A stretch of DNA of 64,000 nt from NCBI RefSeq assembly GCF_009901955.1, contig NZ_WUTS01000001.1, positions 3,216,634 to 3,280,633 on the forward strand. Direction: 5' to 3'. Positions within the stretch are counted from its first letter, which is position 1. Each line of letters opens with the position of its first letter. The notes under the pieces were generated by a model. The model saw only the letters and a program-made list of their open reading frames with translations. It was not told the DNA's origin and did not search any database. The position numbers and the translations under genes were made by a program. This stretch comes from Halomonas icarae. GTDB taxonomy: Bacteria; Pseudomonadota; Gammaproteobacteria; Pseudomonadales; Halomonadaceae. Below, piece after piece: positions 44,208 to 52,010 of the stretch.

Positions 44208-45110
44208 ATGAGCCTCTACCGCGGACGCTTCGCCCCCACCCCTTCAGGACCACTGCACTTCGGCTCACTGATTGCGGCCCTGGGCAGCTTCCTGGATGCT
44301 CGGCAGGCCGGCGGCGAGTGGCTGTTGCGCATCGAGGATATCGACCCGCCACGCTGCCCGGCCGGTGCCGCCGACGAGATCCAGCGCCAGCTGGAGGCCT
44401 TTGGACTGCAGTGGGATGGACCCGTACTCTGGCAGCACGCCCGCAATGACGCCTACCAGGCCGCCCTCGAACGCTTGACCGATCAGGGCCTCGCCTATCC
44501 CTGCAGCTGCTCACGCAAGCAGTGGCGTGACCACCCCGTCTATCCCGGCTGGTGCCGCCATGGCGTCCGTGAGCCCGACAAGCCGGTGGCATGGCGACTA
44601 CGCAGCGACCGGGGGCTGCGCCCGGTGGTATGGCAGGATCGACTGTTTGGCGAACAGCGCTTCGACCCGGCTCGACTCGGCGACGTGGTACTCAAGCGCA
44701 AGGATGGCCTGTGGGCCTACCAGCTCGCCGTGGTGGTGGATGATGCCGGCCAGGGCATCAATAACGTCGTACGCGGTTTCGACCTGCTCGACAACACCCC
44801 CTGGCAGCGCCAGCTGCAGCACGCCCTGGGTGCCGCCACGCCGAGCTACCTGCATCTGCCGCTGATCATCGGTGAAGGTGGCCAGAAACTTTCCAAGCAG
44901 AACCTCGCCCCGGCGCTGCCCACCCGGGACGCCGCGGTACGCCCGCTGCTGCATGCCGCCCTGAAGGCGCTCGACCAGGCGCCCCCGGAGACGCTTGCCA
45001 CCGCACCCGTGAGCGAGCAGCTCGCCTGGGCCGTTGAGGCCTGGTCGGTGGCACGCATTCATCCCCAGGCTGAACGGCCTCTCGCCAACAATCGGGTCAC
45101 GGCGTCGTGA
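44208..45110 (+). CDS. gluQ: Glutamyl-Q tRNA(Asp) synthetase
   Basis: 300-residue truncated GluRS paralog that attaches glutamate to queuosine-34 of tRNA-Asp. Catalytic motifs RGRFAPTPSGPLHFGSLIAA (HIGH-like) and GQKLSKQNLAPAL (KMSKS-like) are present, as is a CSCSRKQW...CRHG zinc-binding element. No anticodon-binding domain, as expected for the family. Downstream of dksA as in E. coli and Pseudomonas. Confidence 0.95.
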   Translation: MSLYRGRFAPTPSGPLHFGSLIAALGSFLDARQAGGEWLLRIEDIDPPRCPAGAADEIQRQLEAFGLQWDGPVLWQHARNDAYQAALERLTDQGLAYPCSCSRKQWRDHPVYPGWCRHGVREPDKPVAWRLRSDRGLRPVVWQDRLFGEQRFDPARLGDVVLKRKDGLWAYQLAVVVDDAGQGINNVVRGFDLLDNTPWQRQLQHALGAATPSYLHLPLIIGEGGQKLSKQNLAPALPTRDAAVRPLLHAALKALDQAPPETLATAPVSEQLAWAVEAWSVARIHPQAERPLANNRVTAS

Positions 45111-45126: not shown

Positions 45127-45303
45127 ATGTACGTCTATCGACTGATGTTGTTCCTGGTGTTCATCGGCTACCTGCTCTCACCGCTGATGATGAGCGGCTG
45201 GGCCAATCCCGACGTGGCTTGGTACCGTCCCTTCATCATCTGGGGCGTGTTGATCGCCCTGACCCTGTGGCTGGAGCAGAAGAGGAAACTCGATGAACGC
45301 TAG
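45127..45303 (+). CDS. Small membrane protein preceding cbrA (CbrX-like)
   Basis: 58 residues with two hydrophobic segments (LMLFLVFIGYLLSPLMMSG and FIIWGVLIALTLWLEQ) and a charged end. ATG 45127 has GAAGGAGG upstream. Its end overlaps the cbrA start by 11 bases, so it is translationally coupled to the kinase. Pseudomonas has a similar small gene here, called cbrX as I recall. Function unknown. Confidence 0.8.
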   Translation: MYVYRLMLFLVFIGYLLSPLMMSGWANPDVAWYRPFIIWGVLIALTLWLEQKRKLDER

Positions 45304-48225
45304 CCTGGTCGGCATGCTCGGCGTGGGAGCCGGTTTCCTGCTACTGCTCTGGCTCTGCGCACTGGCCGTGGAACGTGGCTGGATTTCCACGCATATCACC
45401 CGCCACCCGCTCGTCTACGTTCTTGCGCTGGGGGTCTATGCTAGTGCCTGGGCGATCTATGGCAGCCTGGAGCTGGCCGCCACCTCCGGTTACGGCTACC
45501 TGACCTACTATCTGGGCATGGCCGGCGCCTTCCTGCTGGCCCCGGTACTGCTGGTGCCGATCCAGCGCATGGTGCGCACCCATCAGCTGGCCTCGCTGGC
45601 CGACCTCTTCGCCTTTCGCTATCGCTCGCGCTGGGTCGGCACCCTGATCACCCTGGTCAGCCTCTTGGCGGTACTACCGCTGCTGGCCCTGCAGGTCCAG
45701 ACCATGGGCAACGCCATCTATCTGATGACCGGCGCCGCCTCACCGGCCACACTAGCACTGCTCTTCTGTGTACTGCTGGCGCTATTCGACATGACCTTCG
45801 TGGGACGGCGCCAGAGTATCGATGGCCAACACGACAGTCTGCTGGCCGTGATGGCCCTCTCCTCTCTGATCAAACTACTAGCCATGCTGGGCCTCGGCGC
45901 CTTCGCACTGTTCGTAATCTTCGATGGACCCACCGATGTTCAGGCATGGCTCGAGGGCCCAGGCCAGACCTTTCAGTCCAACGTAGTCAAGACCGACCCG
46001 GCTCACTGGCGCTCGATGCTGCTGCTGTTCTTCGCCGGCCTGCTGATGCCGCATATCTTCCATCTGGTCTTTAACGAGACCCGCTCGCGTCACACCCTGC
46101 TGCAGGCCAGCTGGGCGCTACCGCTGTTCCTGCTGTTGATGGCGCTACCGGTACCGCTGATCCTGTGGGCCGGCCAGCGCCTGGGGGTCGATGCCACCTT
46201 CGACACCGGCTACCTGGCGTTTGGCCTGTCCGAGTCGTTGTCCCTTCGGGCCCTTGCCTTCCTCGCCGGACTCGCCGCCACCAGCGCTACCACCCTGCTG
46301 ATCGCCCTGGCGCTGTCGGGCATGCTGACCAACCATGTCTTCCTGGTGGCACACCCCCCCGAGGCCCACCACGACCTATACCGCTGGCTACGTTGGCTGC
46401 GCCGCGGCCTGGTTGCCGCGGTGGTGCTCGGCGGCTGGCTGTTCTATCGCATCGTCGGCGTGCACCACGACCTGACCAGCTTGGGGCTGGCGGCCTTCGT
46501 GGGCATGGCGCAGTGTCTCCCTGGACTACTGGCCCTGCTCTACTGGCCAGGCGCCAACCGGCGCGGCATGGTGGCCGGGCTGATCGTCGGGGTGGGGGTA
46601 TGGCTCTCCGGCCTATGGGTGCCCCTGCTGACCGGACTCCCCGCACTGGCGATCATTCCCCCCGGGCTCGAGGCGCTGAATGGCGAGCCGGTCTGGTACA
46701 CGGTGACCCTGGTCTCCCTGGCAAGCAACGCCATGGTCCTTATCGTGGTCTCCCTGGCCACCCCGACATCCGAAGGGGAGCGTGCCGCCGCCGAGGCCTG
46801 TTCGGTGGATGCGGTGATCCGCCCCCAGCGACTGCCGCTGGAGGCCGCCAACGGTGAGGAGTTCAAGCCACACCTGGCCCGTGCGCTGGGTGAGTCGGTA
46901 GCGAGGCGAGAGGTCGACCGCGCCCTGGATGATCTCGGCCTATCACCGCTGGACGGCCGCCCCTACGCGCTGCGCCGGCTACGCGACCGTCTGCAGGCCA
47001 ACCTCTCCGGGCTGATGGGCCCCTCGGTGGCCCAGGATATTGTCGACCGCTATCTGCCCTACCGCCAGGGAGGCCCCGGCGCCATCGAGGATATCCACTT
47101 CGTGGAGAGCCGCCTGGAGGCCTACCGCTCGCGGCTTACCGGCCTGGCACGGGAGCTCGACGGCCTGCGCCGCTACCACCGACGCACTCTCACGCGACTG
47201 CCCGTGGGGCTGTGCGCCTTCGGTGAGGATGGCGAGCTGCTGATGTGGAACGATGCGCTGGCCCGCCTCTCGGGCATCGACGGCAGCGGTGTCGTGGGCG
47301 CCAGGCGCGAGAGTCTGCCCGCCCCCTGGAACCAGCTGCTGGGGCGCATCATCGCCGAGCCTGAAAGCCAGCTCTACAAACACCCCGTCACTCTCGACGG
47401 CACCACCCGCTACCTCAGCCTACACAAGGCCGCCCTGGAGGGCAGCGATAGCGAGCCCGGTGGCATGGTGATCCTGATCGAGGATCACAGCGAGATGAAA
47501 TGGCTGGAGGATGAGCTGGTCCACGCTGCTCGACTGGCCTCCATTGGACAGCTGGCCGCCGGCGTGGCTCACGAGATCGGCAACCCCATCACCGGCATTT
47601 CGTCGTTGGCACAGAACCTGCGCTACGAGGCCGATGACCCCGAGGTGGTGGAGACCACCGAACAAATCCAGCAGCTCACCGATCGCGTCTCGCGCATCGT
47701 CTCCTCTCTGGTGGGTTTCGCCCATGGCGGCCGCCACCTCGCCGGCCGCGAGCTCGCCCCGGTGGCCATTGCCGAGGTGGTCGACGAAGCCATTCACTTG
47801 ATCCACCTGGCCCGCTCGAGGGAGGATGTGCGCTTCGACAATCGCTGTTCGCGGGAGGCGTGCGTGGAGGGCGATGCCCAGCGTCTGCTGCAGGTAATGG
47901 TCAACCTGCTGGGCAACGCTCGCGACGCCAGCGGCCCGGGAGACAGTGTGACCATCGAGACCGTCCCTGAAGGCCCGGGGGTGAGGGTCAGTGTCACCGA
48001 CGAGGGCGCTGGCATCGATCCCAGTGTCCGCGATCATCTCTTCGAGCCCTTCACTACCACCAAGCCCCCCGGCGAAGGCACCGGCCTCGGCCTGCCGCTG
48101 GTCTATAGCATCATTGCCGAACATCACGGCACCCTGGACGTCGAGTCACCGCTGCCAGGAAATGAGGGCGGTACTCGCATCAGCCTGTGGCTGCCGCGTC
48201 ACCAGAAGGAGGGTGAGAGACCCCG

Positions 48226-48229
<4 letters not shown>
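45293..48229 (+). CDS. cbrA: Transporter-like sensor histidine kinase CbrA
   Basis: 978 residues. An N-terminal sodium:solute symporter-like domain of about 12-13 helices (to about residue 500) is followed by a PAS-type segment near residues 635-740. The HisKA domain has H760 in VAHEIGNPITGISSL, and the HATPase domain has NLLGNARDASGPGD and GTGLGLPLVYSIIAEHHG. This is the CbrA architecture; the SLC5 part of Pseudomonas CbrA is linked to histidine transport. With CbrB it governs carbon/nitrogen balance. The stop overlaps cbrB as ATGA. Confidence 0.95.
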
Positions 48230-49629
<1,400 letters not shown>

Positions 49630-49787: not shown

Positions 49788-49838
49788 TGTTACCGTCCCA
49801 CACACGTCATGCCCGGTTCCTGCACCATCCAGGTAACA
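49788..49838. promoter_or_regulatory. Inverted half-sites TGTTACC / GGTAACA (candidate CbrB enhancer)
   Basis: TGTTACC at 49788-49794 and GGTAACA at 49832-49838, 37 bases apart, end 75 bases upstream of the sigma-54 promoter, the normal range for an enhancer-binding protein. CbrB sites in Pseudomonas are recalled as TGTTAC/GTAACA; the spacing here is from the sequence. Confidence 0.5.
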
Positions 49839-49912
49839 CTCGCTCCTTCAGCAGAAGTCCCTCCCTGAAAAATAAAAAGTATCATACTGATTTTATTGTT
49901 AAAAAAAGATAA

Positions 49913-49927
49913 TGGCATGCCATCTGC
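49913..49927 (+). promoter_or_regulatory. Sigma-54 (-24/-12) promoter of the CrcZ-like sRNA
   Basis: TGGCATGCCATCTGC matches the consensus TGGCACG-N4-TTGC at all invariant positions (GG at 49914-49915, GC at 49926-49927). Transcription would start near 49938-49941. A sigma-54 activator gene (cbrB) lies directly upstream. Confidence 0.85.
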
Positions 49928-49939
49928 AATATACATGGC

Positions 49940-50441
49940 AAGAAAAACAAGTTCCGGCGTCATTCGCTGCCCGCCACAACAACGGCCACAACAACAACAG
50001 CGCAGCCCGAATGACACAGGCCCACCACAACAACATCAAGAGGCGTGGGCCAATTCCGCCACAGGTGCGACACAACAAGAACAACAGAGTGACGTGCCCG
50101 GCCCCTCGAACATAACAACAGCAATAGACGAGGCACCGGAAAATTCAGGACGCGACGCGCCAGCCACGCCCACAACAAGAACAATGGGCCCGCGAGGCGC
50201 ACCCCCGGAAACAATACCAATACGCCGGGGGAAGGCAGAATCACTGCCGTCGTGGTTGGATTATTGTTTTGAATACGAGGCGGTCTCCACCGGGAGCGCC
50301 AACAAGGATAACAACACTGCTTGCCTGAACTCCTTGGTGACTGTGGTGCGTATTCAAGGCGATGTGCCATCACGAAGAAGAAACAGCTGCAGGGACGCTG
50401 CAACGCTGCTTGAGGGGGGAGGCCAATGGCCTCCCCCTTTT
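49940..50441 (+). ncRNA. CrcZ-like regulatory RNA (Hfq/Crc decoy)
   Basis: A non-coding segment of about 500 nt between cbrB and pcnB, from the sigma-54 promoter to the terminator at 50414. It carries about nine A-rich CA motifs of the AAYAAYAA/ARN type, at about 49943, 49975, 49987, 50025, 50071, 50111, 50171, 50208 and 50302 (for example ACAACAACAACAG, ACAACAAGAACAACAG, ATAACAACAGCAATAG), many flanked by GC-rich hairpins. In Pseudomonas CrcZ, in the same place, such motifs titrate Hfq/Crc and relieve catabolite repression. The open frame across it has proline/glutamine-rich nonsense and is not coding. Role inferred; the 5' end is approximate. Confidence 0.82.
50414..50441 (+). terminator. 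Terminator of the CrcZ-like RNA
   Basis: GGGGGAGGCC-AAT-GGCCTCCCCC followed by TTTT: a perfect 10-bp stem with T-run, located about 160 bases before the pcnB start. Confidence 0.92.
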
Positions 50442-50600
50442 ACGTTCGAGTATCGGAAATACGTGTTCGGGTATCGGAAATGTGCGAAAGCCGGAGAAGC
50501 CCTGGTGCTATGCAAGCTCCCGGGGGTCCGCTACACTCAATGCCTTTGCACCTTTACCAAAGCCACGAGCTTTCTCCGCCCTGCGAGTCGATATCGCCGC

Positions 50601-52010
50601 ATGTTCAAAGGATTTACCCGTTTTCTGCAGAGTCCCGGCGAGAGCCTGAAATCACTGTTCGGTACCGAGGCTGCCAGCAGCAACCCCGAGGTTCGCGTCA
50701 TTCCACGCGAGGAGCACCCAGTATCGCGCCAGCATCTCAGCGATGCAGCCCTCAAGGTTCTTTATCGGTTGCACAACGCCGGCTTCGAAGCCTATCTCGT
50801 CGGTGGCTGCATCCGTGACTCCCTGCTCGGGCGCATGCCGAAGGACTTCGATGTGGCTACCGATGCCACACCGGAGGAAGTCAAGGGGCTGTTCCGCAAC
50901 TCACGGATCATTGGTCGCCGTTTCCGTATCGTCCATGTGCGCTTCGGCCGCGAAGTCATTGAGGTCACCACTTTCCGAGGCAAGCCCGGTGACGAGCACG
51001 CCGATCATGTTGCCCAGCAGTCCGACGACGGTCTGCTGCTGCGCGACAATGTCTGGGGCGATGTTCAGGAAGACGCCCTGCGCCGCGACTTCACCATCAA
51101 CGCCCTCTATTACAGCATCGCAGACTTCTCGATCCACGACTTCGCCGATGGCGTTCGCGATATCCAGGCACGCACCCTGCGCCTGATCGGCGACCCGGCG
51201 ACCCGTTATCGCGAAGACCCGGTGCGCATGCTGCGGGCCGTGCGCTTTGCCGCCAAACTCGACTTCCAGCTGGCTCCGACCACCGAGGCGCCGATCCGCG
51301 AGCTCGCCCCCTTGATGCTGCAGATCCCCCCAGCGCGTCTGTTCGACGAAGTGCTCAAGCTGTTCATGGCCGGATATGGCGTCGAGACCTTCCGCCTGTT
51401 GCGCCACTACGGCCTGTTCGAGATGTTGCTGCCCGAGGCCGCCGAGGCCATGGACGAGCTGCCCTGGGCCGAGCGCCTGGTCGAGGAAGCCCTGGCCAGC
51501 ACGGATCGCCGCATCCACGAGGAGCGTCCGGTGACGCCGGCCTTCCTGTTCGCCGCCATGCTATGGCCACCGGTGGTGCAGCGCCAGGCCGAACAGGAGG
51601 CCAATGGGTTGCCGCCGATCCCTGCCCTGCAGGCCGCTGCCCAACAGGTGATCTCGCGTCAGCTCCAGCATGTATCGATCCCCAAGCGCTTCAGCATGCC
51701 CATGCGCGATATCTGGGATCTCCAGCAGCGCCTGCCACTGCGCCGCGGTCGCCGGGTATTCCAGACACGCGAGCATCCGCGCTTCCGCGCCGCCTACGAC
51801 CTGCTGCTGCTGCGCGAGGCCGCTGGCGAACTGACACCGGGTCTCGGCGACTGGTGGACCGACTTCCAGAACGCCAATGAGCACGAACAGGCTCGCCTGC
51901 TCGACCGGGTCGGTGCCAATCCCGCCGGCAGTGGCAAACCCGGCCGCAAACGGCGTCGACGCCGCCGCAAGCCAAGCGGTGGGAATGGTAGCGGTAGCTC
52001 GGAGCCATGA
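50601..52010 (+). CDS. pcnB: Poly(A) polymerase I
   Basis: 469-residue nucleotidyltransferase that adds poly(A) tails to RNA 3' ends. Head-domain motifs FEAYLVGGCIRDSLLGRMPK and DFDVATDATPEEV (catalytic Asp pair), REDPVRMLRAVRFAAKL and a lysine/arginine-rich tail (RKRRRRRRKPSG) are visible. ATG 50601 is the family-like start (MFKGFTRFLQ); the frame stays open upstream through the sRNA, which is not coding. The stop overlaps folK as ATGA. Confidence 0.94.
   Translation: MFKGFTRFLQSPGESLKSLFGTEAASSNPEVRVIPREEHPVSRQHLSDAALKVLYRLHNAGFEAYLVGGCIRDSLLGRMPKDFDVATDATPEEVKGLFRNSRIIGRRFRIVHVRFGREVIEVTTFRGKPGDEHADHVAQQSDDGLLLRDNVWGDVQEDALRRDFTINALYYSIADFSIHDFADGVRDIQARTLRLIGDPATRYREDPVRMLRAVRFAAKLDFQLAPTTEAPIRELAPLMLQIPPARLFDEVLKLFMAGYGVETFRLLRHYGLFEMLLPEAAEAMDELPWAERLVEEALASTDRRIHEERPVTPAFLFAAMLWPPVVQRQAEQEANGLPPIPALQAAAQQVISRQLQHVSIPKRFSMPMRDIWDLQQRLPLRRGRRVFQTREHPRFRAAYDLLLLREAAGELTPGLGDWWTDFQNANEHEQARLLDRVGANPAGSGKPGRKRRRRRRKPSGGNGSGSSEP

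Follow-up and report, generated by a model that had tools for sequence, protein, structure and literature searches.

In Halomonas icarae, the genes dksA, gluQRS, cbrA and cbrB are followed by an RNA gene and by pcnB, within a 64,000-nt stretch of DNA that was analysed as a whole and is referred to here as the window, with all coordinates counted from its first nucleotide. Downstream of gluQRS (44208..45110, + strand), cbrA (45293..48229, +) encodes a protein with C-terminal PAS and histidine kinase domains, which had no match in its N-terminal half to Pfam at 1e-3 and no match to the NCBIfam CrbA/CbrA equivalog, and cbrB (48226..49629, +) encodes an NtrC-type sigma-54 activator with a receiver domain. 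Over its full length, window CbrA is 49–50% identical to the CbrA-like proteins found in family f21, and window CbrB is 63–65% identical to the f21 proteins; the names cbrA and cbrB are used here because of synteny and this full-length similarity. Family f21 is presumably Pseudomonadaceae, and 6 of its 7 genomes carry Rfam CrcZ matches of more than 300 bits. The RNA gene itself (49938..50441, +) is about 504 nt long, with +1 inferred from the promoter and the 3' end set at the end of the U-tract, and pcnB (50601..52010, +) is its downstream neighbour. The preliminary description had placed a CrcZ-like Hfq/Crc decoy RNA precisely between cbrB and pcnB, and the gene identification of both flanks makes this placement exact.

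To compare the locus among relatives, we used a CbrA search of named genomes, which yielded 78 loci, all from Halomonas and related genera (for example, Billgrantia, Modicisalibacter, Onishia and Vreelandella) that we take to belong to Halomonadaceae. The order of cbrB, a gap of 788–1113 nt and pcnB is found in 77 of the 78 named relatives; L014, where the contig ends before any pcnB, was left out, and the 78 Halomonas-group copies discussed below are the window and 77 relatives, a redundant set of which 40 RNAs are left below 90% identity.

A sigma-54 (-24/-12) promoter, TGGCATGCCATCTGCA (49913..49928, +; TGGCATG-CCAT-CTGCA, with GG-N10-GC spacing), precedes the RNA gene and agrees at 10 of the 12 specified positions with TGGCACG-N4-TTGCW, which we take to be the sigma-54 consensus and used for scoring. 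When the 971-nt cbrB-pcnB gap was shuffled 1000 times, 46 of the shuffles had an equally good match on the + strand, and the sequence match taken alone would be moderate evidence for a promoter. That the promoter is real, as had been claimed at the outset, is argued by its fixed place, because all 78 copies have a match of 9–11 of 12 positions there, with upstream subsites at constant distances. These CbrB-type subsites are F1, TGTTAC (49788..49793, +), and R2, GTAACA (49833..49838, +), at -125 and -80, respectively, from the first base of the promoter; the F and R hexamers are the CbrB subsites defined in P. putida, and the CbrB target is described as comprising three subsites, F1, R1 and R2, 20–25 bp apart (PMC6296734). 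Every one of the 78 copies has an exact TGTTAC at 124–126 nt and an exact GTAACA at 80–81 nt before the first promoter base, at a spacing of 44–46 bp. For the middle subsite, no R1-like site was found at about -103 in the window, and none is consistent among the 78 copies. In the six f21 loci read, an exact F lies at -122 to -125, an exact R at -102 to -104, and a second R, matching at 5 of 6 positions, at -80 to -82. The combination TGTTAC-N39-GTAACA occurs a single time in the genome of the window. In genus g319, the F site is located 10 nt farther upstream (-135/-136). Between the CbrB-type sites and the promoter lies an AT-rich stretch with an IHF-like match (49839..49912, no strand assigned); such matches of at least 7 of 9 positions are present in this interval in 71 of the 78 copies versus 10 of 78 in a farther-upstream control stretch that differs from it in composition.

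At the other end, the RNA gene closes with an intrinsic terminator, GGGGGAGGCC-AAT-GGCCTCCCCC-TTTT (50415..50441, +). A G/C terminator hairpin is present in all 78 copies, within a search confined to 440–620 nt behind the promoter, and the hairpin end plus 6 nt falls 475–528 nt past the inferred +1. The strong terminator described earlier is thus matched throughout the group, and the RNA is indeed longer than Pseudomonas CrcZ, at about 504 nt versus the 407 nt (PMC4063720) or 426 nt (PMC6422490) given for the latter.

The RNA carries six patches of (A-R-N)n with n of at least 4, all on the + strand: the (ARN)4 patches AAGAAAAACAAG (49940..49951), AACAACAACAGC (49990..50001), AACAAGAACAAT (50174..50185), which is within a hairpin loop, and AGAAGAAACAGC (50376..50387), and the (ARN)5 patches AACAAGAACAACAGA (50074..50088) and AACAACAGCAATAGA (50114..50128). 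Dinucleotide shuffles give an expectation of 0.25 such patches, and none of 2000 shuffles reaches six. The "about nine" CA motifs initially reported hold for the loose motif AAYAAY, which occurs eight times, and do not hold for strict AAYAAYAA, the sole RNA-strand occurrence of which is contained in AACAACAACAGC, a count that 9.8% of shuffles reach. Conservation of the motif in relatives, which had been named as a check, is borne out, with 2–8 A-R-N patches (n of at least 4) per Halomonas-group copy and a median of 6. In the predicted fold, the mean probability of being unpaired is 0.90 for patch nucleotides versus 0.36 elsewhere in the RNA, and, for A residues alone, 0.95 in patches versus 0.67 outside.

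We considered that the region might be coding, as an N-terminal extension of PcnB or as a separate protein, given that in the window genome a frame of 704 codons (49896-52010) is open into pcnB. However, in 76 of the 78 copies the pcnB frame is interrupted by stops within the RNA, the exceptions being the window and L020, and around the 3' domain no frame is open in all 78 copies, the shortest stop-free stretch being 6–26 codons depending on the frame. Furthermore, the length of the longest closed ATG frame ranges from 0 to 126 codons among the 78 copies, and the PcnB extension had no NCBIfam or Pfam match. On account of the in-frame stops and the lack of a shared open frame around the 3' domain, we rejected the coding explanation, which we regard as scarcely conceivable.

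The window RNA is predicted to fold 5.8 standard deviations below 100 shuffles (z -5.8). Two of its hairpins show compensatory changes: one with an A-R-N loop (50157..50200, +), in the outer stem, and one with a CA-rich loop (50202..50231, +), in the stem. Across 29 aligned copies, the CA-hairpin segment has 61 double-sided pair changes versus 18 in shuffles, none of 500 reaching 61, for a structure picked by eye on the tested alignment itself, which favours it, and shifting the pairing partners along the alignment abolishes the covariation signal. The underlying alignment, A4, comprises 29 of the 30 representatives in which both anchors are present (L074 was omitted), 10 of the 40 representatives lacking an anchor; helix 2 pairs in 76.6% of the A4 cells, a value due in part to an alignment shift in the window row.

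Farther downstream, a near-invariant 3' domain (50249..50379, +) contains long paired arms, GTCGTGG..GAATACG and CGTATTC..CATCACGAAGAA, and was represented by a covariance model (model R1) and an alignment, A3, of 21 sequences (18 of the 78 copies and three from loci without cbrAB). Among the family copies, this domain is conserved more in sequence than the A-R-N patches. The model finds one copy in the genome of the window and a match in 195 of 201 family genomes; in other families, represented by 75 loci and including f21, it has no match at E<=1. Conservation of this kind, extending beyond the A-R-N patches, exceeds what titration needs, and could point to a base-pairing, Hfq-dependent sRNA, in which the near-invariant 3' domain would target specific mRNAs and the patches would merely load Hfq. 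We consider such an sRNA unlikely: the six A-R-N patches are presumably more than Hfq loading should need, a long helix is predicted between the conserved arms, leaving little seed exposed, and the 3' domain model misses the order-level cognates.

How closely the RNA resembles known systems depends on the feature compared. Rfam had no match over the window at the gathering threshold, and the covariance score of the window RNA against RF01675 (CrcZ) is 9.8 bits versus a cut-off of 95, so that, of the original designation, "CrcZ-like" stands, whereas identity with CrcZ by Rfam does not. Among 194 genomes of the order, RF01675 matches 41 at E<=1e-3 and 9 above the cut-off (six in f21, three in f2); no genome of the window's family passes the cut-off, and G176, which belongs to that family, reaches 22.3 bits. 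The CrcZ of strain PAO1 is a 407-nt RNA with six (A-R-N)n repeats of n at least 4 (PMC4063720). Like P. aeruginosa CrcZ, the Halomonas RNA lies between cbrB and pcnB, with a sigma-54 promoter, a terminator and six patches of this kind, and its F1 and R2 subsites are nearly at the f21 distances (about -124 and -81); unlike P. aeruginosa CrcZ, it is about 504 rather than 407 nt long, lacks the R1 subsite, scores 9.8 of 95 bits and has a different 3' domain. CrcY (P. putida, Azotobacter) and CrcX (P. syringae) are described as CbrB-linked relatives of CrcZ (PMC6296734). These are additional RNAs in their genomes, whereas the Halomonas 3' domain model finds a single copy. A more distant analogy is offered by RsmY and RsmZ, sponges that sequester CsrA/RsmA: the logic of sequestering an RNA-binding repressor is shared, but the protein and the motif are different.

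The protein partners of such a circuit, of which the preliminary description had left crc and hfq to a genome search, are all encoded: rpoN (E 1.7e-66), hfq and crc. Residue 25 of the window's Hfq is Phe; in P. aeruginosa Hfq, Tyr25 is described as a contact (PMC6422490). Among PDB entries, the window genome's Crc best matches P. aeruginosa Crc, at E 1.7e-75 and with identity at 120 of 251 aligned residues. Its catalytic motifs are degenerate (QNLK, GTWH, SEY), as they are in all seven family Crcs read, each of which has QN[LI]K, and we infer that the catalytic activity of Crc has been lost. Among the Crc residues singled out in the structural study of Hfq/Crc (PMC6422490), the window protein keeps R140, E142, E193, R196, R229 and R230 and is without R137, K155, M156, N184, F231 and W255. 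In genus g2, which is without cbrAB at the locus, Crc (L221, L222) has Q in place of E142 and A in place of R229, both positions being ascribed to the dimer interface (PMC6422490). Across the order, the Crc search matched 162 of 194 genomes at 1e-25, and the active-exonuclease motif QE[TI]K is kept in 9 of the 30 best matches; because this search mixes Crc and active exonucleases, we make no claim of order-wide co-occurrence of crc and the RNA. Alternatively, the RNA could sequester Hfq with no part played by Crc, or could be a sponge for some other RNA-binding protein; in family f29, genome G066 (L185) keeps the promoter, the CbrB sites and AAYAAYAA motifs and has no Crc match at 1e-25. The genome of the window does encode a Crc-type protein, however, and we judge a sponge of this kind to be very improbable.

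Candidate targets were sought in a sample of 1.264 Mb, about one third of the genome, consisting of 60 spread stretches and the window, with the RNA masked. Here, 12 of 55 AAYAAYAA sites are located 8–42 nt ahead of a plausible start, in 11 genes of which one contributes two starts, and 43 of 55 are not before starts; the 27 same-letter permutations gave 0–6 sites before starts and the reverse complement 1 of 55, all of these being small numbers based on crudely called gene starts. In an earlier count over 864 kb, AAYAAYAA preceded 4 of 549 called starts and ranked first among 28 arrangements. By Pfam, seven of the 11 candidates are a TRAP solute-binding protein, a sodium:alanine symporter, an aldehyde dehydrogenase, an N-formylglutamate amidohydrolase, a periplasmic binding protein, an NADH:flavin oxidoreductase and a radical-SAM protein. 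The other four include, by eye, one each that is aldehyde dehydrogenase-like, response regulator-like and sigma-54 activator-like, the last being L292:15489, where AATAATAA precedes the start of this candidate Hfq/Crc target. Another TRAP protein and a binding protein of the phosphonate type have sites 7 and 24 nt, respectively, ahead of their starts, but did not qualify under the criteria of the 1.264-Mb count. Uptake and catabolic genes are the contents expected of a catabolite-repression regulon, and we regard this set as a candidate regulon.

Taken together, these features lead us to propose, with a probability of roughly 0.86 and on sequence grounds, that the locus encodes an untranslated Hfq/Crc decoy RNA of about 504 nt that works like Pseudomonas CrcZ and is activated by CbrB. 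The conserved A-R-N patches, the presence of rpoN, hfq and crc, and the CbrB-type sites at fixed upstream distances all support the initial suggestion that this organism may use the same circuit as Pseudomonas. When the preferred carbon source is exhausted, CbrA/CbrB and RpoN would switch on transcription of the RNA, the A-R-N patches of which would engage Hfq at its distal face, jointly with Crc; titration of Hfq/Crc would make A-rich ribosome-binding sites accessible on mRNAs for uptake and catabolism and would relieve catabolite repression. Against the decoy function we count the low Rfam score, the single strict AAYAAYAA, the missing R1, the changes at some Crc residues and Phe25 of Hfq, as well as the blindness of the 3' domain model to other families, the AAYAAYAA sites that lie off starts (43/55), the cbrB-pcnB gaps that do not fit (10/71, see below) and the G066 RNA without a Crc match.

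Beyond the Halomonas group, an order-wide sample of 194 genomes gave CbrA matches at E<=1e-100 in 144 of them. Among 80 chosen order-level stretches, 71 have a measurable cbrB-pcnB gap (nine were dropped, seven without pcnB and two without cbrB), and the RNA is present in 61 of the 71 gaps read. Outside families f1 and f21, a promoter matching at least 9 of 12 positions, with at least two AAYAAYAA motifs behind it, occurs in 52 of 62 gaps, representing 29 of 33 families; in these 62 gaps, AAYAAYAA is found 236 times on the RNA strand versus 4 times on the opposite strand, and exact F and R sites are present in 37. The ten misfit gaps include those of f18 and f42, which are 40–47 nt long, both f9 loci and both f43 loci. 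At the f43 loci (L205, L206), the gap has neither promoter nor CbrB sites, and the six f43 genomes with CbrA had no Crc match at 1e-25; a joint loss of the RNA-locus features and Crc is possible in this family. In f8, three loci (L151-L153) have no pcnB behind cbrB, and the single-contig f8 genome G185 has a weak Rfam CrcZ match about 180 kb away. The class sample outside the order comprised 27 genomes with CbrA, of which 20 were fetched and 19 had a cbrB-like gene (35–62% identity); at these 19 loci, there is no pcnB in the stretch fetched behind cbrB and never more than one AAYAAYAA within 900 nt. CbrAB is therefore more widely distributed than the RNA, which, in the form seen here, is an order-level feature. 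Three of the loci outside the order (L309, L313, L314) have a promoter-like GG-N10-GC match and TGTTAC/GTAACA hexamers behind cbrB and no A-R-N-rich RNA, and CbrB may drive something else there.

Within the window's family, the search detected no CbrA in 62 of 201 genomes, a count that may include misses given that few candidates per genome were scored, and all but a few of these genomes have the RNA. The losses described here rest on 22 hand-picked loci of those 62 that were read directly, with G472, where a divergent cbrA fragment is visible, excluded from the loss groups. Nine loci (L353, L354, L355, L357, L358, L359, L360, L370, L371) have cbrB without cbrA, and all nine keep the exact F/R pair; gluQRS is directly upstream of cbrB in eight of them. 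In G502, one of the 22 loci, gluQRS lies beyond the stretch read. The cbrB-only locus L354 (G626) contains a short cbrA-like remnant. Another twelve loci (L212/L249, L247, L248, L352, L361-L365, L367-L369), seven from genus g2, four from g4 and one from the window's own genus, have neither cbrA nor cbrB; there, gluQRS adjoins the RNA, and the sigma-54 promoter, the patches and the 3' domain are kept. The F/R subsite pair is thus present at 78 of 78 loci with cbrA and cbrB, at 9 of 9 with cbrB alone and at 0 of 12 with neither gene; being kept with cbrB and gone without it, the sites are linked to CbrB. Among the loci without cbrAB, G036 has one TGTTAC and GTAACc in a different arrangement, and the one from the window's genus still has a one-mismatch R site at -80. 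This pattern implies that, where CbrB is gone, the RNA promoter would be served by another activator, unless cbrB is located elsewhere in those genomes.

We tentatively advance a broader evolutionary scenario, which we hold to be somewhat doubtful: the decoy RNA would be an old module of the whole order rather than of Pseudomonas, and Halomonadaceae would have uncoupled it from its sensor stepwise, through loss of CbrA while CbrB and its sites persisted and, elsewhere, through loss of CbrB and the site pair, with the RNA and its sigma-54 promoter remaining, presumably under another activator; the 3' domain would have a second function beyond titrating Hfq/Crc.

A 2018 paper describes CbrAB as exclusive to Pseudomonadaceae (PMC6296734), and a 2022 review describes CbrAB with cbrA-cbrB-crcZ synteny as unique to that family, naming Pseudomonas and Azotobacter as the only hosts (PMC8871633). 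This published exclusivity is contradicted by the CbrA-like proteins in 144 of 194 genomes and the RNA in 61 of 71 gaps. The titles and abstracts listed by open-access literature searches included no description of a CbrAB-CrcZ circuit in Halomonas; in the accessible part of one paper (PMC9049629), the genus appears in the references only, and another reports cbrAB transcripts in seawater communities that are, in its accessible part, unassigned to Halomonas (PMC5073097). As far as open-access literature searches show, the mechanism is known in kind, and its place, sequence and wiring are new.

This salt-loving bacterium thus carries a conserved RNA gene of about 500 nucleotides that looks suited to soak up the silencers of genes for second-choice foods. 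The natural variants without cbrA or cbrAB would allow the signal input to be separated from the decoy output by experiment, and the RNA is a candidate carbon-control switch in Halomonas, described as a producer of bioplastics.
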